Assembly (NCBI GenBank): GCA_013823625.1
Contig: PNMM01000002.1
Coordinates: forward strand, 124,001 to 188,000
Source: Microbacterium sp.
Lineage (GTDB): Bacteria; Actinomycetota; Actinomycetes; Actinomycetales; Microbacteriaceae
DNA: 64,000 bases
Direction of reading: 5' to 3'
Position 1 is the first letter of the stretch. Each line of letters opens with the position of its first letter. Shown in pieces: positions 15,461 to 27,768 of the stretch. The translations under genes and the position numbers were made by a program. The notes beneath the pieces are model-generated. The model was not told the DNA's origin and ran no database searches. It saw only the letters and a program-made list of their open reading frames with translations.

Positions 15461-15787
15461 CTACCGGCAGTACTTCAGACCCCTTGCGATCTGGGTATAG
15501 GTGACATATATAGCGTTGGCACTCGACTTAGTCGAGTAGTGGATACGCGTCTGGAATGCAGAGGTGGCTGGCCAGGATTGTCCGGTGTTGTTGGTGATAC
15601 TGGTCCACACGGAATGTGAGGTAGCTCCCGTTGTTGACGTGTTCACGCCAATCGTCCCCGGACAAGTTAAGGGCCCGAGGTTAGCGGTCGCTGCGGTAGC
15701 AGCGCTTGATGTCCCGGCAAGTCCCGCAACGAGCAACGCCGCAATAACGAACTTGGCTGATGTAGAACGGTTCAATGCTTTCTCCAA
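15461..15787 (-). CDS. Small secreted two-cysteine protein, copy 1
   Basis: This 108-residue protein has no family I recognise. A Sec signal peptide (FVIAALLVAGLAG followed by Ala-rich AxA sites) is expected to be cleaved around residues 30-35. The mature part of ~73 residues is rich in Thr/Ser/Asn, with one Cys near its start (GPLTC, residue 42) and one as the second-last residue (KYCR, 107). The copy at 19933 has the same layout: G-L-[ST]-C, an STTG-T-H stretch, W and a VY-x-Y strand near the end. The start is TTG with AGGAG nine bases upstream; a second TTG four codons in, with GGAG in front, is equally possible. It sits between lipoproteins B and A on the same strand. A bacteriocin-like role is inference. 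Confidence 0.7.
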   Translation of the reverse strand: MEKALNRSTSAKFVIAALLVAGLAGTSSAATAATANLGPLTCPGTIGVNTSTTGATSHSVWTSITNNTGQSWPATSAFQTRIHYSTKSSANAIYVTYTQIARGLKYCR

Positions 15788-16038: not shown

Positions 16039-16698
16039 TCACCAAAGGTCATTCGGCAACTGTGGACACTGTGCCTCTAGTTCTGAGAGAGCCTGTTCGC
16101 CCAGTGGTAAAGCTTGTTCGGAAGCTTCAGCCCATGGCAGCCAAGGTTCCGAGTAGTAGGAGTCCACAAATCGTTGCAGTGAAGGCGGCGGTGAAGTTTC
16201 GTATCCCATCTCGCGCAAGCAGACAACGAGATCCTCAGAGTAATAGCGGTAAAGCTTGCTGAGCTGGACTTCGCTAAGTGGCCGGTTGTACTTCGGATCC
16301 AATGGGTACATGGCCTCGCACAGATACTGCGCCAACTGGAAGGCCGACCGCTGCGAATCGGGAATGTCGCTGTAGTTGATTCCTCCGCCGCTCGAATTGG
16401 CCGTTACGTTCAGAAAACCTTCACTCTGCAAGCATGAGGCAATAATGTCGTCCCACTCGTCAAGCTCGACGAACCTCACGAAGTCAACTTCAGGCCGGAC
16501 AGCATCGGGGTCCAAGATCTCCACTTGTGCCCATGATCTGTCGAGTAACTCTTGAACGATTTCGGCGTCAGTCTTGTTTTCCGACTCAGTCAAAGGTTCC
16601 GATCCGGAATTCGCACAAGAGGTCAGGGCTACCATCAAGGCAAGGGACACGGCTGCACCGAATCCAGCCTTGCGAGAGATTTCGCTAAGCAAAGCCAT
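16039..16698 (-). CDS. Lipoprotein of the local paralogous family, copy B
   Basis: The product has 219 residues, with a signal peptide ending LTSCAN (lipobox TSC). The family blocks are AVRPEVDFVRFVELDEW, ASCLQSEGF, QYLCEAMYPLDP, LYRYYSEDLVVCLREMGY, PPPSLQRF, WLPW and a C-terminal AQCPQLP. The ATG at 16698 was chosen because the signal peptide starts there; the upstream frame extension is charged and has no secretion features. Base composition looks lower in GC than the flanking genes. It is the first gene of the minus-strand trio B, small secreted protein, A. Confidence 0.78.
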   Translation of the reverse strand: MALLSEISRKAGFGAAVSLALMVALTSCANSGSEPLTESENKTDAEIVQELLDRSWAQVEILDPDAVRPEVDFVRFVELDEWDDIIASCLQSEGFLNVTANSSGGGINYSDIPDSQRSAFQLAQYLCEAMYPLDPKYNRPLSEVQLSKLYRYYSEDLVVCLREMGYETSPPPSLQRFVDSYYSEPWLPWAEASEQALPLGEQALSELEAQCPQLPNDLW

Positions 16699-16950
16699 AA
16701 GTAGAGCACCGCACCTTTCGCTTCTGATCCTGCTGTAGTCATTCAGTACTCGATCGTCCACACCAGCCCGATGGATTGATGCTTCAATGATCGATCTTGA
16801 CGTTCATGGCCCTCTCGAGCCCAGCCCTCCAAACGAGAGTCGACTGGACTTGCATAGGAGACTGAGCCTACGCCTGCCTTGAACTATATTAAGGACTAAT
16901 CAACTCTCGTCCGAGGACGGGGGCCTGGCTCGACTTGTCGCGGGAGAACG

Positions 16951-18027
16951 ATGCGGAATCTAGGTCTGACGCCTCGAGGTTTGGCGCGTCCACTGGCGAT
17001 CGGCACGGGCGTACTGGTAGCGGGCGCGGCGATCGGCTGGGCATCCGCCACGGTTCTCACACCGCCGCAAGACGTGCTCGCCTCGACCGCGTTCACGACC
17101 GCCGAGGTCGTCACGGGTGAGGTGGGGTCGAGCATCATGCTCAACACCGTTGCAGAGTGGACCCCGGCGCCGGTCGGCTCAAACCTGGCGGGCGGCACGG
17201 TCACGACCGTCGACATCGCCGCGGGCGCCGAAGTCACTCCCGGCACGAAGCTCTATTCGGTCAACCTGCGCCCGGTCGTTGTGGCACAGGGCGCGATTCC
17301 CGCGTTTCGTGCGCTGACTAGTGGCGACACCGGGCAAGACGTCGCACAGCTGCAAGCCATGTTGACCGCACTCGGCCACTACAGCGGAGCGGTCGACGGC
17401 CAGTTCCGATGGTCGACCACCGCTGCCGTGCGTGCGTGGCAGAAGTCGCTCGGCCTGCCGCAAGACGGCGTCGTGCAGGCGGGCGACATCATCTATGTGC
17501 CCACCCTGCCCACCCGCGTGGCGCTCGACACCAAACTCGTCGCCCGTGGCGCATCGCTCAGCGGAGGCGAGGCCGTCGTGCAAGGCCTCGGCGCCGCCCC
17601 CTCCTTCTTCGTGCCGGTGACCGACGCGCAAGCGGCACTCATGCCCACGGGCACGCGCGTCGAAATCACGAGCCCCGAAGGTTCAGCCTGGGAAGGCTTC
17701 GTGATCGATCGGGTGACTGACGAGAACCAGGGAATCCGCGTGCTGCTCTCGGGCGCCGAAGACGCCGCGGTGTGCGCTGCCGAATGCGCGCAAGTACCGG
17801 TCACGGGCCAGTCGTTCTTGACCTCACGCATCGTGATCGTCGAGAGCGTCACGGGCCTCACGGTGCCGAGCGCGGCGCTGCTGTCAAAGGCCGACGGCTC
17901 GATCGTCGTCATCGACAGCGAGGGCATCGAGTACCCCGTGACCGTGGTCACGAGCGCGCGCGGCCTCTCGATCATCGAGGGCGTAGACGCTGGCACTCGC
18001 GTGCGCGTTCCCGCCACCGAGGGCTGA
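16951..18027 (+). CDS. Peptidoglycan-binding membrane-fusion (adaptor) protein
   Basis: The 358-residue product has one N-terminal membrane anchor (residues ~13-35). A first HlyD/MacA-like barrel part follows (VVTGEVGSSIMLNTVAEW, then AGGTVTTVDIAAGAEVTPGTKLYSV). A PG_binding_1 domain is inserted at ~120-170 (ALTSGDTGQDVAQLQAML, AVDGQFRWSTTAAVRAWQ). The distal beta domain ends with LTVPSAALL and VDAGTRVRVP. Such adaptors link MacB-type ABC transporters to the wall. The ATG has GGGAGA three bases upstream. It is the first gene of a + strand set continuing with the ATPase three bases later. Confidence 0.85.
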   Translation: MRNLGLTPRGLARPLAIGTGVLVAGAAIGWASATVLTPPQDVLASTAFTTAEVVTGEVGSSIMLNTVAEWTPAPVGSNLAGGTVTTVDIAAGAEVTPGTKLYSVNLRPVVVAQGAIPAFRALTSGDTGQDVAQLQAMLTALGHYSGAVDGQFRWSTTAAVRAWQKSLGLPQDGVVQAGDIIYVPTLPTRVALDTKLVARGASLSGGEAVVQGLGAAPSFFVPVTDAQAALMPTGTRVEITSPEGSAWEGFVIDRVTDENQGIRVLLSGAEDAAVCAAECAQVPVTGQSFLTSRIVIVESVTGLTVPSAALLSKADGSIVVIDSEGIEYPVTVVTSARGLSIIEGVDAGTRVRVPATEG

Positions 18028-18029
18028 GC

Positions 18030-18662
18030 GTGATCGAGGCACGCGGCATCACGTTCGGCTACGACCGCGACGCGCCCATCCTCACCGACTGGTCGGCACG
18101 GTTCGACGCGGGTGAAGTGGTCGCCGTCACGGGCCCTTCTGGCCGCGGCAAGTCAACGCTGCTCTACCTGCTGGGCCTCATGCTCAAGCCCGGTGACGGC
18201 GAAGTGCTCATCCAGGGCGACAGTGTCGCCGGACTCGGGGATGCGCGACGTGCGCACCTGCGCGCTTCCCTGTTCGGGTTCGTGTTTCAGGATGCCGCGC
18301 TCGACCCCACACGCACCGTCATCGACAACGTGGTCGAGACCGCCCTCTATCGTGGCGAGCCGCGCGCAGACGCCCAAGCTCGCGCCCGCGAGCTCATGGC
18401 GCAGTTCGGGGTGGAGCTGCGCGCGAGCGCGAAACCCGGGCAGGTATCCGGGGGTCAAGCGCAACGCATCGCGCTGTGCCGGGCGCTGCTGAACGACCCG
18501 CGCATCCTGCTCGCCGACGAACCCACGGGCAACCTTGACCCGGCCTCGGCCGACATCGTGGTCGACGCGTTCCACGCCCAAGCGCACTCGGGTGCCACGG
18601 TCATCGTCGTCACCCACGACCCCGCACTCGTCGCCCGCTGCGACCGGAGGATCGAACTGTGA
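18030..18662 (+). CDS. ABC transporter ATPase, MacB/LolD type
   Basis: This is a 210-residue stand-alone ATPase. Walker A is GPSGRGKST near residue 36, the Q-loop is FVFQDAALDPTRTV, the signature is VSGGQ (one residue different from the LSGGQ norm), Walker B is ILLADEP and the H-loop is VVTHD. The GTG start follows the adaptor stop directly, and its stop overlaps the permease start (GTGA), so the three genes form one transport unit. Similar adaptor/ATPase/permease sets accompany lactococcin 972-type bacteriocins in Gram-positives, which is why the island is of interest. Confidence 0.9.
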   Translation: MIEARGITFGYDRDAPILTDWSARFDAGEVVAVTGPSGRGKSTLLYLLGLMLKPGDGEVLIQGDSVAGLGDARRAHLRASLFGFVFQDAALDPTRTVIDNVVETALYRGEPRADAQARARELMAQFGVELRASAKPGQVSGGQAQRIALCRALLNDPRILLADEPTGNLDPASADIVVDAFHAQAHSGATVIVVTHDPALVARCDRRIEL

Positions 18663-19774
18663 CCCGCCGTCTGCGTACGGCGCGGTGGATGGCCGTGGTT
18701 CGTGAAGCGCTCGCGACCTCGTGGGCGCAACCCGTCGCCTCGGTGGTCACGGTCGTCATGGTTGCGGGAATGTGCGCGACCGTCTTGCTCACGACGGGCC
18801 GCACCGTCGGTGCCGAGCAAGCCGTCATTAGCTCGATCGACTCCGCTGGCACCCGCTCGATCATCGTGCGCGCCGAACCCGCCTCGGGTCTCGACGCCAC
18901 CGTTCTCGACCGCCTCGCAAGCCTCGACGGCATCGAGTGGGCGGGGGCGTTCGGCGCCGCAAGCGACGTGCAGAACGCCGCGTTCGACGACGCCACCCGC
19001 GTGCCCGTGCGCACCGTGTGGGCGGCTGACCTCACCGCAATCGGCATACCGGCAACCTCGGCGATCGAGAATCGGTCGGCCTGGGCATCCGCCACCGCTC
19101 TCGACGCGCTCGGCATGCCCGACGCGGTCGGCGGCGTCACGGCGGTCAGCGGGGGCGAGTACGCCATCATGGGCCGCATCAACGTGCCCGACTACCTGCA
19201 GTTTCTCGAACCGCTCGTGATGATCCCGCAAACCCCGGAGACCTCGGGAGCGGTGAGCGTGCTCGTCGTCATCGCCGAACGCCCCGACCTCGTCGCCCCC
19301 GTCTCCCGAGCCGTGCAGTCTGTACTCGCCATCGACGACGTCACGACCGTTACGATCTCCACGAGCGAGAGCCTCGCAACCCTGCGCGGACTCATCGAAG
19401 GCCAACTCGGTAGCTTCGGCCGCAACCTCGTCATCATCATCTTCGCCCTCACCGCCGTGCTCGTCGCGGCGATTCTCTACGGCCTCGTGATGCTGCGCCG
19501 CAAAGACTTCGGACGCCGCCGCGCCCTCGGCGCATCCCAAGGCCTCATCGTCGGGCTCTTGCTCACGCAAGTGGCGGTGCTCAGCGCGATAGGAGCGATC
19601 ATCGGATGCGCGGCCGCCGCCATCGGCCTAGCCGCCACCGGCGACCCGCTACCGGGGCTCGACTTCTTCGCAGCGGTCGCCCTGCTCGCCGTCGCCGTCG
19701 GAGCGATCGCTGCCGTGATTCCGGCGCTGGCTGCGGCTCGTCGTGACCCGCTGGCCGAGCTTCGAGTTCCATAA
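18659..19774 (+). CDS. FtsX/MacB-like ABC permease
   Basis: The 371-residue protein has the MacB topology: one transmembrane helix near residues 26-46, a large extracellular domain (~50-255), then three helices near 258-283, 302-330 and 338-360. The C-terminus AARRDPLAELRVP is the typical FtsX-superfamily ending, and the cytoplasmic loop MLRRKDFGRRRALGASQG is the ATPase contact. It lacks the ATPase domain of E. coli MacB; that is supplied by the previous gene. MacB-type systems act on periplasmic or wall-side substrates such as peptides or lipoproteins. Confidence 0.87.
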   Translation: MTRRLRTARWMAVVREALATSWAQPVASVVTVVMVAGMCATVLLTTGRTVGAEQAVISSIDSAGTRSIIVRAEPASGLDATVLDRLASLDGIEWAGAFGAASDVQNAAFDDATRVPVRTVWAADLTAIGIPATSAIENRSAWASATALDALGMPDAVGGVTAVSGGEYAIMGRINVPDYLQFLEPLVMIPQTPETSGAVSVLVVIAERPDLVAPVSRAVQSVLAIDDVTTVTISTSESLATLRGLIEGQLGSFGRNLVIIIFALTAVLVAAILYGLVMLRRKDFGRRRALGASQGLIVGLLLTQVAVLSAIGAIIGCAAAAIGLAATGDPLPGLDFFAAVALLAVAVGAIAAVIPALAAARRDPLAELRVP

Positions 19775-19932: not shown

Positions 19933-20253
19933 ATGAACAAGATGGGCAAAGTGCTGATCTCAGCCATTGCTGTATGTGCGCTCGCAGTCGCAGGTGCAAC
20001 ACCAGCCCAGGCCGCCGGGCGCACGATTGGCGGATTGAGTTGCAGCTCTCCTTTCGTGGTGTACAGCCACAGCACGACTACCGGGACCACAACGCACACG
20101 CATTACTCAACTTGGGGAACTGAGCAAAGGACGTGGGCGAATGGAGTCAACCTTCTTTTTCGCAACACCACATTCGGTTTCCCGTCAGTGAGTTCTGTCT
20201 ACATCTACAAGACGACAGCGGGCACGCCAACCGGAGGTCGGGCTTGCGGCTAA
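19933..20253 (+). CDS. Small secreted two-cysteine protein, copy 2
   Basis: This is a 106-residue protein with a clear Sec signal peptide (lysines at 3 and 6, a hydrophobic core, cleavage expected after PAQA near residue 27). The mature ~79 residues are Thr/Ser/Gly-rich and basic. One Cys lies near the start (GGLSC, residue 37) and one is second-last (RACG, 105), as in copy 1. A His/Thr/Tyr segment (VVYSHSTTTGTTTHTHYSTW) is vaguely like lactococcin 972 proteins, but those lack these cysteines, so membership is not claimed. It lies 158 bases after the ABC permease and 95 before lipoprotein C on the same strand. Antimicrobial peptide or transporter cargo is inference. Confidence 0.7.
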   Translation: MNKMGKVLISAIAVCALAVAGATPAQAAGRTIGGLSCSSPFVVYSHSTTTGTTTHTHYSTWGTEQRTWANGVNLLFRNTTFGFPSVSSVYIYKTTAGTPTGGRACG

Positions 20254-20348
20254 GCCAAAACCGATCCCCAGTCGAGCCCGTAGCCAACGCCAAAGCGGCT
20301 GAACTCTCCACTCGAGGAACTGACGGCAGGTTCCGTCTCAGAAAGCTG

Positions 20349-20930
20349 ATGCTCGCGGGAGTCTCCTTGTTGACGGCCTGCAACATTGCCGCATGTTCAA
20401 CCTCGGCTGAGAGGCTGCCCTCGGACATGCTCTCTGTCGAGACCCAAGATAACTTGTGGGAACGAGTCGTTTCCGAGTTCCCCGAAGCGATACGACCAGA
20501 TGTCTCAGTCGTCCGAGAAGTCTCTCTAGATGGGTGGCCACAAGCTCAGGCTGACTGCCTAACGAGCGCCGGCTTCCCTTCTCGTGTCGATGACGGTGCG
20601 CTCAGCACATCCGTCGAAGACGCGCAACGCGAGCCTTATTTGATTGAGAGTTACCGCTGCTCGGTTCAGTTTCCGCTAAGCGCTGAGTACACGACCCCGC
20701 TAGATGCGGATCAGCTCGCCTCGCTCTACGACTACTTTGCACGTGACCTTGTGCCCTGTCTCGAATCTCAAGGCTACGAAGTAGGCGCGGTACCGACCCG
20801 TCAGTCGTTCGTGGAAAGGTACTACGGCGAAGAACCGTGGACCCCGTACTTGATTGTCGGACCGACCGTCCCACTCGACGATTTGGCGCCTCTAGAGAAG
20901 GCCTGCCCCCAACTTCCGACCAACTACTGA
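20349..20930 (+). CDS. Lipoprotein of the local paralogous family, copy C
   Basis: The product has ~193 residues. Family blocks are EFPEAIRPDVSVVREVSLDGW, ADCLTSAGFPSRVDDG, SYRCSVQFPLSAEYTTPLD, LYDYFARDLVPCLESQGYEV, a PTRQSF variant of PPS-x-Q-x-F, PWTPY and a C-terminal ACPQLPTNY. The lipobox is IAACS. The start is uncertain: the ATG at 20349 gives a signal without basic residues, while the frame upstream (RFRLRKL) has them but offers only a TTG at 20244 overlapping the small secreted protein gene. Either initiation is unusual or the 5' end was rearranged. It pairs with the small secreted protein just upstream. Confidence 0.72.
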   Translation: MLAGVSLLTACNIAACSTSAERLPSDMLSVETQDNLWERVVSEFPEAIRPDVSVVREVSLDGWPQAQADCLTSAGFPSRVDDGALSTSVEDAQREPYLIESYRCSVQFPLSAEYTTPLDADQLASLYDYFARDLVPCLESQGYEVGAVPTRQSFVERYYGEEPWTPYLIVGPTVPLDDLAPLEKACPQLPTNY

Positions 20931-21383: not shown

Positions 21384-22037
21384 CTACGACCCGCGGAAGC
21401 CCGGCGGGCTCTGCGGGCACGCTCGATTGAGACGCGTCCACTCTTCTTGCCCCGGGATGCCAACCGCCAAGTACGGCGACCAGGAATCGGGGCTCTGCAA
21501 CGCATCCTTGAAGGCTTGACGAGAGGGAGGCTCGATCACGTCAATCCCCTCGCGCTCAAGGCAAGGGTTGAGCTCGTCGACGAAGTAGTTGTACAGGTAG
21601 TCCAGCTCGGCGTCGGTCGGAGGTTGCGTCAACGACGGGTCCATGGGGTATTTGGCGTCGCAGACATAGCGGGCGATTTCCATGGACATCTCTTGGCCGG
21701 CGACCCCTTGGCTCTCGAATCCACCCTGGCCGTCATTGCTGACCTTGGCGTCGACGCCCTGATCGACGAGGCAGTCGACCATGACCTCGGCCCACTCCGA
21801 CGGATCGATAAAGCGCACGAGGTCGACGTCGGGGCGCACGGCATCCGGAAACTGAGATTCAACGCCCTGCCACGACTGCTCAAGCAGCTCGGCGTACGCC
21901 GCACTCGTCTCTTGCTCAGACAGTTGCGGCGGAGGTGGCGGCAGAGTTGGACCCGCGCTAGAACAGGCGGTCACTACGGCAGCGACGGCGAGTGCAGAGG
22001 CAAGAGTTGCCGCGACGCGCGGAGACCAAGTCGACAT
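21384..22037 (-). CDS. Lipoprotein of the local paralogous family, copy D
   Basis: This 217-residue copy is the highest in GC. The signal peptide ends VVTACSS, followed by a polyproline spacer (PPPPPQ). Family blocks are FPDAVRPDVDLVRFIDPSEW, VDCLVDQGVDA, GGFES, RYVCDAKYPMDPSLTQPPTD, LYNYFVDELNPCLEREGIDV, PPSRQAF, SWSPY and ACPQSPPGF. The ATG at 22037 is preferred: TATCCT ends six bases upstream, a leaderless -10, and the signal peptide begins there. Unlike B and C it has no adjacent small secreted protein gene, but the decayed copy lies directly downstream. Confidence 0.8.
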   Translation of the reverse strand: MSTWSPRVAATLASALAVAAVVTACSSAGPTLPPPPPQLSEQETSAAYAELLEQSWQGVESQFPDAVRPDVDLVRFIDPSEWAEVMVDCLVDQGVDAKVSNDGQGGFESQGVAGQEMSMEIARYVCDAKYPMDPSLTQPPTDAELDYLYNYFVDELNPCLEREGIDVIEPPSRQAFKDALQSPDSWSPYLAVGIPGQEEWTRLNRACPQSPPGFRGS

Positions 22038-22123
22038 GCGGTGAGGATACCCGAGCAGAACGTCTATCAAGAGGAAACGTCGAGATTTGACAGCATGGTC
22101 TTGTAAAGGGGCGGCGACACGAG

Positions 22124-23902
22124 TCACCCGAAGACGCGACGCCCCGCCACCCACGTGCCGACATTCGTGGTGGCGTGGATGCTCTCCGCCGGCCCCGCGA
22201 ACGGGTCGCGATCAGTCGCGGCGAGGTCGGCAACCGCCCCGACCTCGATGACGCCCGTGACGTGCGCGTCGCCCGGCCCGCGCCCGTTGATGAACGCCGA
22301 GCCGGCCGTGTAGGCGTCGAGCGCCTCGGCGAGAGTGAGCGCCTCGTGCGCAAGCAACGGCTCGGGGTCGTGCTCGGGGTCGTCGGCGGGCAGGGTGCGG
22401 TTGACCGCCACGTGGATGGCCTGCCACGGGTCGGGGGTCGAGACGGGCCAGTCGCTGCCGGCGCACAGTCGCGGGCGAGCATCCGTCGCCGCGACGTCGT
22501 CACCGGCGTTGCCGCGACCGGCGCCGCCGCCTGCCGCATGAACCCCGCCGTGCAGGATGCTCGCGAAAGGGTACTGCGTCGCCGCGCGCTCGGCGCCGAC
22601 GATCGGCACCGTGAGCTCGCGCATCTGGGGCTCGTTGCACGCCCACAGGGCTTGCATGTTGGCGGTCACGCCGATCGCGGCGAAGCGGGCAACGTCGTCG
22701 GGGTGCACGAACTGCACGTGCGCGAGGTGGTGGCGGCGGGCATCCGTCGAGGGGCGCGATGCCCAGTCGTTCGCCGCCGAGGTGGCCTCAAACGCGTCGA
22801 GCGCGTCGCGCACCGCGCGGTCGCCGATGACGTGCACGTGTGCGCTGAAGCCGGCGTCGTCGAGCGCCATGATCGCGTCGGTGAGCGCCTGCCCGCCGAC
22901 GAACGCAATGCCGGTCGGATGCTCGCTCTCGCCCGCCTCGCCCAGGTACGGCTCGAGCATCGCCGCCGTGCCGTTCTCGACGACCCCGTCGGCCATGATC
23001 TTCACGGCACTGAGTCGAAAACGGGAGGCGGGCCCCAGTTCGGCCGCGTGCGCCTCGCGGCGCGCGACGAGCTCGGGCACTTGCTCAACGCCGCGAGTGC
23101 GATCCCACCACAGGGCGCCGACGACGTCGACGGTGAGGCGACCCTCGGCGAGAGCGCGGCGGTACACGAGCGCGGTGTCGCTCGCGCCGAAGTAGTCGCC
23201 CACGATCGCGTCTTGCCAGGCCGTGATGCCGAACGAGTGCGCGTAGCGCTGCGCTTCGAGCAGCGCCGCGAACTCGTCGTCGGGCGTCGCGGCGGGGGCC
23301 ACCGCGGCGACGAGCGACGCCGCGCCCTCGTGCAACGTCCCCTGCGGCGAACCATCGGGCAAACGCTCGATGCGGCCGTCGGCAGGGTCAGGACTGTCGG
23401 CGGTGATGCCCGCGAGGGCGAGCGCGGCCGAGTTGGCCCACGCGCCGTGGTGGTCGCGGTTGTAGAGGAAGACGGGGCGGATGGGCTCAATCGCGTCGAG
23501 CTCGGCGGCGCTCGGCGTGCCGCCGGCGAAGGCGCTCATCGCCCAGCCGCCGCCCGTGATCCACGCTCGCGAGGCGTCGCAGCCGCGCGGAGGATTGAGT
23601 TGCGCGTACTCCGAGATGAGCCGCGCGTAGTCGTCGGTCGAGGAGCCGTCGCTGAGGTCGCAGCCGAGCCGTTCGAGTCCGCCCTGGATGGGGTGAATGT
23701 GCGCGTCGACGAAACCCGCGTGCAGCATCCCGCCCGCTAGATCGACCACCTCGGTGTCGGGGCCGCGCCACGCGCTGAGGTCAGCATCCACCGCCGCAAT
23801 GCGGCCGTCGACGACGGCCACCTCCAGCGCTGATGAAACAGGGCCGCGGCCCGCCCCCGCGTAGACGACTCCTCCGATGAAGAGCAGATCTGCGTAGGAC
23901 AC
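22124..23902 (-). CDS. Amidohydrolase family 3 protein (YtcJ-like)
   Basis: The 592-residue product has a composite N-terminal beta-sandwich (LLFIGGVVYAGAG, VAVVDGRIAAVD) and an amidohydrolase TIM barrel. Metal ligands are visible: DAHIHPIQGG near residue 67, a later His in HVHVIGDRAV, a His in HLAHVQFVHPDD and the catalytic Asp in LCAGSDWPVSTPDPW. YtcJ-like proteins hydrolyse N-acyl or cyclic amides, and the substrate cannot be told. The GTG at 23902 was chosen; the frame upstream reaches into nrdB. Confidence 0.87.
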   Translation of the reverse strand: MSYADLLFIGGVVYAGAGRGPVSSALEVAVVDGRIAAVDADLSAWRGPDTEVVDLAGGMLHAGFVDAHIHPIQGGLERLGCDLSDGSSTDDYARLISEYAQLNPPRGCDASRAWITGGGWAMSAFAGGTPSAAELDAIEPIRPVFLYNRDHHGAWANSAALALAGITADSPDPADGRIERLPDGSPQGTLHEGAASLVAAVAPAATPDDEFAALLEAQRYAHSFGITAWQDAIVGDYFGASDTALVYRRALAEGRLTVDVVGALWWDRTRGVEQVPELVARREAHAAELGPASRFRLSAVKIMADGVVENGTAAMLEPYLGEAGESEHPTGIAFVGGQALTDAIMALDDAGFSAHVHVIGDRAVRDALDAFEATSAANDWASRPSTDARRHHLAHVQFVHPDDVARFAAIGVTANMQALWACNEPQMRELTVPIVGAERAATQYPFASILHGGVHAAGGGAGRGNAGDDVAATDARPRLCAGSDWPVSTPDPWQAIHVAVNRTLPADDPEHDPEPLLAHEALTLAEALDAYTAGSAFINGRGPGDAHVTGVIEVGAVADLAATDRDPFAGPAESIHATTNVGTWVAGRRVFG

Positions 23903-23931: not shown

Positions 23932-24915
23932 CTAGGCCGAGGTCTTGGCGTTGACCTCGTACGAGGTGTTCGTCGACTCGAAGAAGTTGACGAGCTGCAG
24001 GGTGTCGTTGGCCGTTGCCATCCACTTCGCCGGGTTCGACACGTTGTACTCGGGCTCGAAGCCGAGCTCTTCGAGACGACGGTCGGCCAAGTACTTGACG
24101 TACTGGTTGATGTAGTTGGCGTTGAGACCCAAGATGCCGTTGGGGAGGAGGTCGTGGTTGTAGGCCTCTTCCATCTCGACGGCGTCGAGAATCATCTGGC
24201 GAATCTCGGCCGCGAACTCGGGCGTCTGCAAGTCGGGGTTCTCTTCGAGCACCGTGAGAATCAAGTTGATGCCGAACTTGAGGTGCAGGCTCTCATCGCG
24301 CACGATCCAGTCAACGAGCGAGCCGAAGTTGCGCAGCAGGTTGCGCTGGCGGAACGACAGGGCGACCATGAAGCCCGAGTAGAACCAGATGCCCTCGAGA
24401 ATCACGTTGTAGGCGACGAGGTTGCGGATGAAGTCTTGCTTGCCCTCGGTCGTCGTGATGTCGAGCGTGTCTTCCGTCATGCGACGAATGAACTTGACCT
24501 CGAACTCTTCTTTACGCGCCATCGACGGCACGTCGACGTGGCTGTCATAAGCGGCAGCACGGTCGATCGGGAAGGTCTCGAGCACGTACTCGAAGCTCAT
24601 GCAGTGGTTCGCTTCTTCCCACATCTGCTTCGCGAGGTAGAGGTGCGCCTCGGGAGCCTTGACGTAGGGGTACACGCCGAAGGCGAGCGCCTTGTTGACG
24701 AGCAGCTCATTCGGGTTGAAGTACGACATCAGGAAGGTGATGGCGTGACGCTCTTCGTCACTCATCTTCTTGAAGTCGGCGATGTCTTCACCGAGCTGAA
24801 TCTCGTTGGGGAACCAGGTGTTGGCAACTGCCTGGTCGTAAAGGTCCATAGCCCACTTGTACGTGACCGGCTTGAGCAGCAGGCCCTCTTGGATTCCGGT
24901 TCCGAGGATTCCCAT
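23932..24915 (-). CDS. nrdB: Ribonucleotide reductase small subunit, class Ic-like
   Basis: This 327-residue ferritin-like subunit generates the oxidant for NrdA. Metal ligands lie in MSDEERHAITFL, WEEANHCMSFEY, VILEGIWFYSG and RDESLHLKFG. Four residues after the second-site His (E-x2-H) stands Phe, where class Ia enzymes have the radical Tyr (E. coli Tyr122). This is the hallmark described for the Chlamydia-type Mn/Fe R2 proteins, a group that includes Tropheryma whipplei. The C-terminus (FESTNTSYEVNAKTSA) carries the usual NrdA-binding tail with a Tyr. It is the second gene of the nrdAB unit. Confidence 0.92.
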   Translation of the reverse strand: MGILGTGIQEGLLLKPVTYKWAMDLYDQAVANTWFPNEIQLGEDIADFKKMSDEERHAITFLMSYFNPNELLVNKALAFGVYPYVKAPEAHLYLAKQMWEEANHCMSFEYVLETFPIDRAAAYDSHVDVPSMARKEEFEVKFIRRMTEDTLDITTTEGKQDFIRNLVAYNVILEGIWFYSGFMVALSFRQRNLLRNFGSLVDWIVRDESLHLKFGINLILTVLEENPDLQTPEFAAEIRQMILDAVEMEEAYNHDLLPNGILGLNANYINQYVKYLADRRLEELGFEPEYNVSNPAKWMATANDTLQLVNFFESTNTSYEVNAKTSA

Positions 24916-24985: not shown

Positions 24986-25084
24986 CTACTGGCAGCTCTC
25001 GCACTGCAACTCGTCCATCGGGTCGATCGGAACCTCGTAGGTGAACGATGTGGAGCTGGTGGTGCTGGTCTGGTTCGCGCGCAT
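24986..25084 (-). CDS. Out-of-frame C-terminal redox tail of NrdA (32 codons)
   Basis: Eight bases behind the nrdA stop, in the -1 frame, an ATG opens 32 codons ending EVPIDPMDELQCESCQ, then stop. A C-terminal CxxC tail is what NrdA needs to re-reduce its active-site cysteines, and the 835-residue NrdA frame lacks it. GGGGGAG lies eight bases before the ATG, so separate translation is possible. The tail frame is also open upstream through the end of nrdA, so a -1 slip on the G5 run at 25095-25099 would fuse them, as would one extra G if the run was misread. Whichever applies, the peptide belongs to NrdA. Confidence 0.75.
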   Translation of the reverse strand: MRANQTSTTSSTSFTYEVPIDPMDELQCESCQ

Positions 25085-25089
25085 GAGGA

Positions 25090-27597
25090 CTACTCCCCCG
25101 CCTTCACGGCGCCGCCGAAGCCGAAGCCTTTGCGGGGCGCGACGCCAGCAGGCGTCGCGCTGGCGCTTGCGCCAGTGTCGGCAGATGCGCCAGCACTGAC
25201 CGCAGAGCCGAAGCCCTTCTTCGCCGCGCTGCTGGTGTCAGCGTTGATCTCTTCGGCCTTGTTGACCTTGACGGTCGACTGCTCGGCCGTGTGGCGCGGC
25301 TTCATGTGCAGGTAGTAGGTCGTCTTCACGCCCTTCTTCCACGCCGAAGAGTAGATGTCGATCATTTCGTCGACATCGCGCGTTTCGAGGTACATGTTGC
25401 GGCTGATGGCCTGGTCGATCCACTTCTGGGCACGCGCCGCCACCTCAAGGAAGGCGTAGGGCGAGAGCTGGAAGCTCGTCTTGAACGTGGCCTTGATGTC
25501 ATCCGGAATCGCCGAGATGCCCTGAATGTCACCCTGGCTGCGCAGAATGTCTTCGCGCACGCGCTCCCACAGACCGTGAACCTGCAGCGCGTTCACGAGG
25601 TTGCGGTTGACCTCGAGGAACTTGCCCGAGCTCGTCGAGCGGCTGAAGATCTGCGAGAACTGCGGGTCGAGGCCCGGCGTGGTTCCGGCAACGAGTCCAA
25701 TGGATGCCGTCGGCGCGATGGCCATGAGCGTCGCGTTGCGCATGCCGCCCTTGACCTTCGCGCGCAGGGCATCCCAGTCGAGACGAGTCGTGCGGTTGAC
25801 CTGCACCTCGATGCCACGGTCGGCCTCGGTGAGGTCGATCGTGTCGAGCGGCACGAGGCCCTGCGACCAGCGGCTGCCCCCGAAGTTGGCGTACGAGCCA
25901 CGCTCTTTCGCGAGCTCGGTCGACTCGTCGATGGCCGCGTACGAGACGTGCTCCATGATTTCGTCGATGAGGTCGAACGACTCTTCGGAGTCGTACGAGT
26001 AGCCCAGGCGCTCGACGATGTCGGTGAAGCCCATGACGCCGAGGCCGATGGCGCGGTTGTTCTGGTTGGCGTGGTCGGCCTCGTCAACGCTCGACACCGT
26101 GATGTCAATGAGGTTGTCGAGCTGACGCACCGCGAGGCGAGCGCTCTCGTCGATCTTCGCCCAGTCGATGGCGGCACGGCCGTGCGCACCGTCAATGAAG
26201 TGCTGCGAGAGGTTGATCGAGGCGAGGTTGCAGACCGAGATGTTGTCGCGGTCTTGCGGCAGGCAAATCTCGGTGCAGAGGTTCGAGAGGTGGATCGTGC
26301 CCGTGTTGTTGTTGATGGCGCGGTTGTTGATCGTGTCTTTCCACGTCAGCCACGGGTGGCTCGTCGACTGCAGCGAGATGAGGATCTGCTTGAACTGCTC
26401 GCGCGCCCCCATCTTCTTGAACATGTGCATTTCGCCGCGCTCGGCCATCGCCACGTACTCGGCGTAGCGCTTCGAGAACTCTTTGCCGTACAGCTCGTTG
26501 AGGTCAGAGACCTCGAGCGGGTCGAAGAGGTACCAGTCGTCGTCGTTCTGCACGCGCTTCATGAACTCGTCGCTGATCCACACGGCGGTGTTGGCCGTGC
26601 GGGTGCGGCGGTAGGGGTCACCCGAGTTCTGACGCAGGTCAAGGAACTCGGGGAAGTCCATGTGCCAGTTCTCCATGTAGAAGCACAGGGCACCGAACTT
26701 CTTGCCACCACGGCTCACGGCGCGCAGCACCGAGTCGATCGTGTGCATGAACGGAATCGGCCCGGTCGAAGTCGTGTTGTTAGAACGGATGGGCGAACCC
26801 TGGGCGCGCAACTTGGTCACGGCCAGGCCGATGCCGCCCGTGCCCTTGGTGAGCCACATGACGTCGCGCACGCTCTTGGCGATGTGCTCGATGTCGTCTT
26901 GCATCTCCATGACGAAGCAGTTCGAGAGCTGGGGGTAGCTCGTGCCCGCGTTGACGAGAGTGGAGCCCGCGGCGAGGTACTCGAGCTTCGACATCTTCTC
27001 GTAGAAGGCGATGGCGTGCTTGGTGGGCTCGGCCTCGTTGAGCGAGAGGCCCATGGCCACGCGCATCCAGAAGTATTGAGGGGTTTCGAGCGGCTCGCCG
27101 TTGCGTGCCTTGATGCCGTAGCGGTTGTTGAGCGTCACGACACCGATGTACTTGAGCAGTTCGTCGTGCGCGGGGTTGAGCACGTCAGCGAGGGCGTCGA
27201 GGTCGAACAGGTCGGGGAAGCGCGAGTCGAGCAGGGCCTCGTCGACACCCTGACGGATGTAGCCAGCGAAGTGGGCGCGGTGCAGCTCGCGCAACTCTGC
27301 TTCATTCTCGTAGTCACCGAGCACGCGCTTGTAGATGGTCTTGAGCAGCAGGCGGGCGGCCACGACGTCGAACGCCGGGTCGTCTTTCACGTTCTGCAGC
27401 GCAACCTGAATGACGGCTTCGTCGAGCTGCTGGGTCGAGATGCCATCGAAGAGCGTGAGCTCGAGCTCGCTCGCGATTTGCGTCACCCACGCGACCTGGT
27501 CGGGCAGGCCCTCAGCCGCGCGCTCGATCGCCAGGTTGATCTTGTTGGCGTCGTACGGTTCACGGCTTCCATCGCGCTTCACAACGGTGATGCTCAC
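25090..27597 (-). CDS. nrdA: Ribonucleoside-diphosphate reductase large subunit
   Basis: The 835-residue product starts with an ATP-cone (VVKRDGSREPYDANKINLAI), the allosteric activity site. Active-site parts are visible: Cys in YPQLSNCFVMEM, the N-C-E triad in HLSNLCTEICLPQ, Cys in ISVCNLASINLSQ and the Tyr pair of the radical path in KTTYYLHMKPR. The last ~55 residues are a low-complexity Ala/Gly/Ser linker with repeated KGFG, ending GAVKAGE with no cysteine; the expected CxxC tail follows in another frame. The start is GTG. NrdR-like boxes lie about 125-170 bases upstream. Confidence 0.93.
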   Translation of the reverse strand: MSITVVKRDGSREPYDANKINLAIERAAEGLPDQVAWVTQIASELELTLFDGISTQQLDEAVIQVALQNVKDDPAFDVVAARLLLKTIYKRVLGDYENEAELRELHRAHFAGYIRQGVDEALLDSRFPDLFDLDALADVLNPAHDELLKYIGVVTLNNRYGIKARNGEPLETPQYFWMRVAMGLSLNEAEPTKHAIAFYEKMSKLEYLAAGSTLVNAGTSYPQLSNCFVMEMQDDIEHIAKSVRDVMWLTKGTGGIGLAVTKLRAQGSPIRSNNTTSTGPIPFMHTIDSVLRAVSRGGKKFGALCFYMENWHMDFPEFLDLRQNSGDPYRRTRTANTAVWISDEFMKRVQNDDDWYLFDPLEVSDLNELYGKEFSKRYAEYVAMAERGEMHMFKKMGAREQFKQILISLQSTSHPWLTWKDTINNRAINNNTGTIHLSNLCTEICLPQDRDNISVCNLASINLSQHFIDGAHGRAAIDWAKIDESARLAVRQLDNLIDITVSSVDEADHANQNNRAIGLGVMGFTDIVERLGYSYDSEESFDLIDEIMEHVSYAAIDESTELAKERGSYANFGGSRWSQGLVPLDTIDLTEADRGIEVQVNRTTRLDWDALRAKVKGGMRNATLMAIAPTASIGLVAGTTPGLDPQFSQIFSRSTSSGKFLEVNRNLVNALQVHGLWERVREDILRSQGDIQGISAIPDDIKATFKTSFQLSPYAFLEVAARAQKWIDQAISRNMYLETRDVDEMIDIYSSAWKKGVKTTYYLHMKPRHTAEQSTVKVNKAEEINADTSSAAKKGFGSAVSAGASADTGASASATPAGVAPRKGFGFGGAVKAGE

Positions 27598-27720: not shown

Positions 27721-27768
27721 TCACTATATATCGGGGGTCTGACAAAGTTCACACCCTAGATGTAGTGG
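27721..27768 (-). promoter_or_regulatory. Pair of NrdR-like boxes in the nrdA promoter
   Basis: The cores CTATATATCG (27724-27733) and CTAGATGTAG (27756-27765) fit the NrdR core CwAtATaTwG at 9 and 8 of 10 positions. They lie 32 bp apart, the usual three-turn spacing of NrdR box pairs. The first overlaps TATAGT, a likely -10 on the nrdA strand. Confidence 0.65.

Follow-up and report, generated by a model that had tools for sequence, protein, structure and literature searches.

Evidence for a class I ribonucleotide reductase of Microbacteriaceae with its redox tail encoded as a separate small protein

Introduction

Class I ribonucleotide reductase (RNR) must re-reduce its active site after every turnover, a task ascribed to a tethered C-terminal tail, which is in turn reduced by NrdH and glutaredoxin-type reductants, small proteins of the thioredoxin fold. 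Here we analyse a stretch of 64,000 nucleotides from Microbacterium sp. (contig PNMM01000002.1, positions 124,001 to 188,000), hereafter the window, meaning the whole stretch at its full length, in which the large-subunit gene nrdA ends without such a tail and a short open reading frame (ORF) between it and the radical subunit gene nrdB encodes the putative tail on its own. From sequence comparisons we conclude that a class I reductase of the Microbacteriaceae, a group of soil and water bacteria, very probably has its redox tail as a separate protein of 20-57 residues acting in trans. NrdH and glutaredoxin are also small redox proteins serving RNR; they differ in that they reduce the tail, whereas the mini-protein is the tail itself.

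The nearest known system is NrdJa/NrdJb of Pseudomonas aeruginosa, a split class II enzyme whose 229-residue NrdJb performs dithiol exchange and is needed in vivo; the available text of its 2015 description presents it as the sole split RNR then found in a non-viral organism and mentions no unlinked, plasmid or phage copies (PMC4520616). As in the window, the large subunit is split towards its C-terminus, the separate piece carries cysteines and the two genes belong to one operon. Unlike NrdJa/NrdJb, which that text describes as a class II, B12 enzyme with a far larger separate piece, the window enzyme is of class I with an adjacent nrdB.

The second NrdA piece of Aeromonas phage Aeh1 is said to be more than just a redox tail. 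Genes nrdA-a and nrdA-b of this phage likewise encode a class I large subunit as two cooperating chains, a split that differs in being caused by insertion of the homing endonuclease mobE, as far as the available text of PMC2988022 and PMC3653736 goes. Covalent attachment is reported, in the accessible parts of PMC9531940 and PMC9669993, for the C-terminal CxxC motif found in 1737 of 2022 class I sequences; the same chemistry would be expected of the detached tail, the same motif being fused to NrdA in sister families. A Grx-NrdB fusion is also described in the text available of PMC6187632. The first-pass annotation of the window had regarded a programmed frameshift or a trans-acting tail as new for RNR. 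That claim has to be narrowed, as the available text of PMC4520616 already describes a class II enzyme whose redox subunit is split off; for a free class I tail, no paper was found among the matches listed in the open-licence literature, which is not proof of absence. What is new relative to the known split RNRs is the class, the size, the unlinked gene with NrdR-like boxes and the spread to phages and plasmids.

Results and discussion

The nrdA locus of the window

On the minus strand of the window the operon reads nrdA, tail ORF, nrdB, with the nrdB partner present (Table 1). The first-pass annotation had described an nrdA frame that ends GAVKAGE-TAG and lacks the C-terminal cysteine pair, a 32-residue tail in the -1 frame (EVPIDPMDELQCESCQ-TAG), a G5 run (GCGGGGGAGTAG) offering a slip site before the nrdA stop, and a GGGGGAG (25099-25093) ending 8 nt ahead of the tail ATG; all these were found in the sequence, the tail stop ending at 24986, 104 bases beyond the last base of the nrdA stop (25092-25090).

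Table 1. Coordinates of the features of the nrdA operon in the window
Feature	Position	Strand	Basis or remark
NrdR-like box 1, nrdA promoter, CCACTACATCTAGGGT	27753..27768	-	box search
NrdR-like box 2, nrdA promoter, CCCCGATATATAGTGA	27721..27736	-	box search
nrdA body, class I RNR large subunit	25090..27597	-	ORF list, Pfam, NCBIfam
RKGFGFGG motif near C-terminus of NrdA body; perhaps docking	25111..25134	-	
GGGGGAG: final nrdA codons and likely ribosome-binding site of tail ORF	25093..25099	-	
Detached redox tail ORF (putative), 32 aa, MRANQTSTTSSTSFTYEVPIDPMDELQCESCQ	24986..25084	-	ATG at 25084; counterpart in 174 distinct loci
nrdB, encoding the radical subunit; third operon gene	23932..24915	-	PF00268, NF007186

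The NrdA body of 835 residues contains ATP cone, all-alpha and barrel domains above the Pfam cut-off (PF03477, PF00317 and PF02867), its best NCBIfam match is NF005101 (1617 bits) and it matches entry 5im3 of the Protein Data Bank (PDB) with E 2.6e-187. Residues C227, C441, C456, N439, E443, Y761 and Y762, which we take to include the catalytic cysteines and the YY pair, are unchanged across 14 aligned rows; judged by this alignment and these presumed roles, the body retains its catalytic residues. The tail ORF ends DPMDELQCESCQ and has no Pfam match passing the cut-off and no NCBIfam match. Its best Pfam match, DUF5816 (E 0.1, under the cut-off), was taken as chance and rejected as an identity. 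The genome of the window (G000; 4 contigs, 99.97% complete) gave one NrdA match and one PF02867 match, and the PF02867 search revealed no further large subunit of class I or II in it; class III was not searched for. The window NrdB carries E-x-x-H-x-x-x-F (EANHCMSF), its phenylalanine presumably standing at the place of the class Ia radical tyrosine, as in class Ic enzymes.

Survey of nrdA 3' ends

The survey comprised 276 nrdA loci, namely 30 from 60 relatives, 80 named records among the matches listed, 27 from 396 genomes of the order, 20 of another 27 order matches, 24 and 94 from 299 genomes of the family, and the window; the other 7 of the latter 27 order matches and several cut or partial family matches (e.g. 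G441, G515, G619, G624) were left out. All but one of the loci were readable (275/276; L264 ran off its contig) and 235 were distinct after removal of duplicates. These were initially sorted into 175 split, 35 fused and 25 neither; L118 (family f10), a probable indel in a fused gene, was then removed from the split class. The comparison of nrdA 3' ends in related genomes that the first-pass annotation had proposed thus shows the split in 174 of 235 distinct ends, all from the family of the window and named close relatives. Named records account for 68 of the 174, mostly Microbacteriaceae or its genera (some titles give only "Actinomycetota" or "Micrococcales", and one, L041, Cellulomonadaceae), and the rest are genomes of the family of the window. 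The 35 fused rows are NrdA of the same type, all from other families of the order, ending CPVDPMERLQCESCQ or variants such as CPTDPQELLNCEACQ; the body and tail genes together correspond to this fused homologue, the identical motif being fused in these sister families. The 25 ends in neither class consist of 15 distant NrdA (36-41% identity, with another fused tail of the CEACQ/CEACE type outside the search pattern), two truncated by a contig end (L102, L262), one that probably reflects an indel (L023) and seven close relatives without an adjacent tail.

Had one G been missed in the read, as the first-pass annotation allowed, body and tail would form one longer frame. The arithmetic of that joined frame is consistent; it is not the state of the family, and in the closest relative (L002) an identical G5 run goes together with the same split and another stop codon. 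Single-base indels in homopolymers are common, and the outgroup L118 and the family row L023 resemble them, but the split is shared by 174 distinct loci with differing frames and stop codons (TGA in 111, TAA in 47, TAG in 16), and an error of sequencing or assembly in the G run is a practically negligible explanation.

Highly improbable, too, is a programmed -1 frameshift at the G run that would yield fused NrdA and tail at least sometimes, one of the three readings that the first-pass annotation had offered for the window. The tail does lie in the -1 frame in the window and in 151 of the 174 loci, and in 123 of these 151 its frame stays open through the nrdA stop. However, start/stop overlaps of the TGATG and ATGA kind also give -1, the remaining 23 tails lie in frame 0 (16) or +1 (7), 44/174 have a tail frame that is interrupted across the nrdA stop, and the relative frame is not conserved. 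Moreover, seven genomes have no tail beside nrdA and one elsewhere, and unlinked, plasmid and phage tails (see below) are beyond the reach of a frameshift in nrdA. As a general mechanism the frameshift is contradicted by these data; in this single genome it could in principle still contribute some fused product.

With start codons picked by rule, the tail of the split loci has 20-57 residues (median 27) and starts at +2 of the nrdA stop in 81/174 (TGATG, TAATG or like) and at -1 in 41/174 (ATGA or like), which are the usual forms of coupled re-initiation. A loose Shine-Dalgarno (SD)-like pattern is found near the tail start in 164/174, a count without chance control at high GC. P-14, M-10 and Q-1 are invariant in 174/174, though the search pattern did not require them. 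The ratio of nonsynonymous to synonymous variation (pN/pS) over the last 18 codons of operon tails is 0.28 in frame, versus 1.70 and 2.50 out of frame (152 distinct sequences, without L118), and for unlinked tails 0.26 versus 1.71 and 2.34 (54 sequences), as under purifying selection. Because of the invariant residues and the low in-frame pN/pS, the tail ORF is more than a chance frame.

Conservation is seen at both sides of the split: the C-terminal extensions of 174/174 split and 31/35 fused loci contain [KR]GFG, and nearly all tails contain Y-x-V-P-x-D-P-M. This would suit a post-translational step, ligase-like or splicing, joining the free tail to the NrdA body into one chain. By eye, nothing next to the operon in the ORF list resembles a ligase or an intein, and tails with variable N-termini and so wide a range of lengths are unlike the product of a fixed processing site; we regard such joining as very unlikely.

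Tail genes away from nrdA

An argument for a tail acting in trans comes from the seven relatives without a tail in the gap between nrdA and nrdB (L048, L090, L233, L263, L265, L268, L273), in three of which nrdB starts 8-9 nt past the nrdA stop. A degenerate DNA pattern, DPM(D/E) followed by CxxCQ, which variants of DPM(D/E) escape, located a tail elsewhere in all seven genomes, two copies in G535 and one in each of the other six; in G434 it lies about 35 kb off and in several it is on another draft contig. A reversed pattern, used as control, gave no match in these seven genomes and none among the matches listed elsewhere. Six of the seven have a single PF02867 match (G535, G470, G434, G585, G630 and G699), although two of the six are below 90% complete (G585, 88%; G630, 86%, with a partial match) and one has no stated completeness; the seventh, G698, has two. 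Since the only tails of these genomes are away from nrdA, and six have a single large-subunit match, the tail would have to act in trans if these enzymes work as others do. Of the reading of a separately made, trans-acting tail in the first-pass annotation, the separate ORF is thus well supported, and action in trans would follow on that condition.

The motif was found in 135 of the 299 family genomes, in 130/130 with nrdA (E 1e-150 or better) and in 5/169 without it, the latter five being 77-94% complete and the counts ignoring shared descent. Two or more copies are present in 91 of the 96 nrdA-bearing family genomes that are at least 95% complete. Among 392 genomes of the order, 29 outgroup genomes carry the motif once each, and G000 carries it twice. 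A free tail was not seen in these outgroup genomes, because 28 of the 29 have a fused nrdA and the remaining one is the genome of L118. Among 394 genomes of the class, G000 is the sole carrier. Its second copy (G000:C3:131741-131776, MDNDNETVGGYAVPVDPMDMLQCESCQ) comes with a strong SD and with what looks by eye like a terminator hairpin. Tail-bearing genomes have one PF02867 match in 42/44 cases and two in G576 and G698.

Two further arrangements were observed. G459 has six copies of the tail motif (L327, L328, L329 and the nrdA locus), with four arranged as two opposite-strand pairs about 4-5 kb apart. At L349, near 2239 (+), the motif ends a possible protein of 107 residues, as if joined to another small domain.

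NrdR-like boxes

Upstream regions were scored with a 16-bp consensus that we take to be that of the NrdR box. Paired boxes with a spacer of 14-17 bp were sought at a threshold of 20 of 32, the pair and spacer rule being that given in the available text of PMC12051234. A pair scoring at least 20 is present upstream of nrdA in 104 of the 105 loci whose upstream sequence was long enough, versus 7/525 single-base shuffles. The unlinked tail of G000 has boxes ACACAACATGTAGGGG and TCCCGTTATATAGTGA with a 17-bp spacer, and overall a pair at this threshold precedes the start of the tail in 36/58 distinct unlinked copies, which were chosen by hand and weighted to extra copies, and in 0/18 nrdA-adjacent copies. 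All 36 boxed copies encode a peptide of the GGY/DGY/SGY/DGF type. Because unlinked copies share nrdA-like box pairs, the standalone tail gene appears to belong to the regulon of nrdA.

Plasmid, phage and viral copies

Searches by tblastn with a 27-residue peptide detected tails in 19 plasmid records (Clavibacter 15, Leifsonia 3, Gryllotalpicola 1) and 6 phage records (Clavibacter phages CN1A and CMP1, two each, Pontimonas phage phiPsal1 and Pseudanabaena phage Pan2 with a weaker variant), at E values of 3e-4 to 0.2 that need the family context. Most of these matches are unannotated or "hypothetical", and the Pontimonas genome paper, in its available text, merely names phiPsal1 (PMC6106888). 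One 33-residue plasmid tail (L480, 4983-5084) is annotated "ribonucleotide-diphosphate reductase subunit beta" (WP_223361114.1). The short ORF of Pan2 (L479, 4002-4085) reads MDDFDTIDGFACPNDPADLVSCESCQ, which points either to a wrong host label or to free tails beyond actinobacteria.

IMG/VR added at least 120 tail loci, with a stop directly after the last motif codon in 118 of them; none of these tails ends a full large subunit, because no stop-to-stop frame exceeds 208 codons. PF02867 was absent from 8/8 named phage and plasmid records tested and present in 1/42 viral records tested; many of the 50 records are fragments, which makes the absence from 49 weak. No NrdA of at least 60% identity was found in plasmid records or among the 5000 phage records covered. 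The one viral record with PF02867, G732 (L484), encodes its own NrdA, which ends APRKGFGFKSAN without a C-terminal tail, and a tail ORF lies 88 nt upstream, a split arrangement that we count in favour of a separately encoded tail; this NrdA has an intein-like insert exactly at SNLC/CTEI, at the catalytic cysteine (match to the Pfam intein domain at E 6e-8, just short of the cut-off). In viral record G730 (L420), ThyX (PF02511) and NrdB (PF00268) are encoded near the tail, and PF02867 is absent from the 77-kb record. The third copies of G014 and G001 (L318, L320) have peptides identical to those of the IMG/VR loci L393 and L439, a hint that these copies are proviral.

Alternatively, the free tails, and those on phages and plasmids in particular, could have a regulatory or decoy role, competing for thioredoxin or blocking NrdA. 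Genomes with as many as six copies and the mobile records lacking a large-subunit match would fit this, and sequence alone cannot separate donor from blocker. On the other side, the seven genomes whose only tails are not beside nrdA require that type to be productive, if the body needs a tail, and the cysteine pair is retained in the tails, though the search patterns required it. We give this alternative a slim chance.

Proposed mechanism

The reading we favour, a detached tail acting in trans, would have arisen by gene fission in the flexible C-terminal linker of a class I large subunit, the body keeping the catalytic barrel. The nrdA-adjacent tail would be made by coupled re-initiation, mostly at the stop/start overlap, a second chromosomal gene with NrdR-like boxes would make another copy, and plasmids and phages would supply more. 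The CxxC pair of the free tail would re-reduce the active-site disulfide and would itself be re-reduced by thioredoxin-like proteins, with the mini-protein either docked on NrdA, perhaps via [KR]GFG, or serving as a diffusible carrier between thioredoxin and NrdA. We infer that the mini-protein is made, is controlled by NrdR, reaches the active site of NrdA and is needed for turnover. That a separate redox subunit may be workable is suggested by analogy with NrdJb of the class II enzyme, as described in the available text of PMC4520616.

Several points weigh against this. Five of the 96 near-complete nrdA-bearing family genomes have only one copy of the motif, and 22 of the 58 unlinked copies have no box pair, most of these being divergent extra copies that could have another role. 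A 20-residue peptide may be short-lived, and untethering should lower the rate, with no proven compensating feature. The AlphaFold2 model of a natural fused homologue (L129; nearest PDB entry 5im3) has a mean predicted local distance difference test score (pLDDT) of 73 and a predicted template modelling score (pTM) of 0.77, with pLDDT of about 60 in the tail and about 30 in the linker, and does not decide on binding; the model of the window body is poor (mean pLDDT 43.7, shallow alignment).

With a free mini-protein, whose gene is found only away from nrdA in some genomes, the question of a tethered versus a diffusible tail becomes directly testable with short synthetic peptides. The mini-protein also represents a family of genes with products of about 25 residues, most of them lacking annotation in the records examined, and a route by which phages and plasmids may act on DNA-precursor synthesis of the host. 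We lean slightly towards a wider interpretation, in which the tail of class I RNR has become independent, exchangeable and mobile: a host gene under NrdR control would let tail supply set the synthesis of deoxyribonucleoside triphosphates (dNTPs), and phages and plasmids would bring tails to take over or boost the host large subunit without encoding one, as perhaps in L420 with its neighbouring ThyX and NrdB.

Other features of the window

Elsewhere in the window, two similar small secreted proteins (15461-15787, minus strand, and 19933-20253, plus strand) flank an export-type ABC gene set (16951-19774, plus strand); we take them to resemble bacteriocins of the lactococcin-972 type. Within 7 kb, three lipoprotein-like ORFs (16039-16761, minus; 20133-20930, plus; 21384-22154, minus) have in common a stretch like PDAVRPDVDLVRF and, by eye, look like paralogues.

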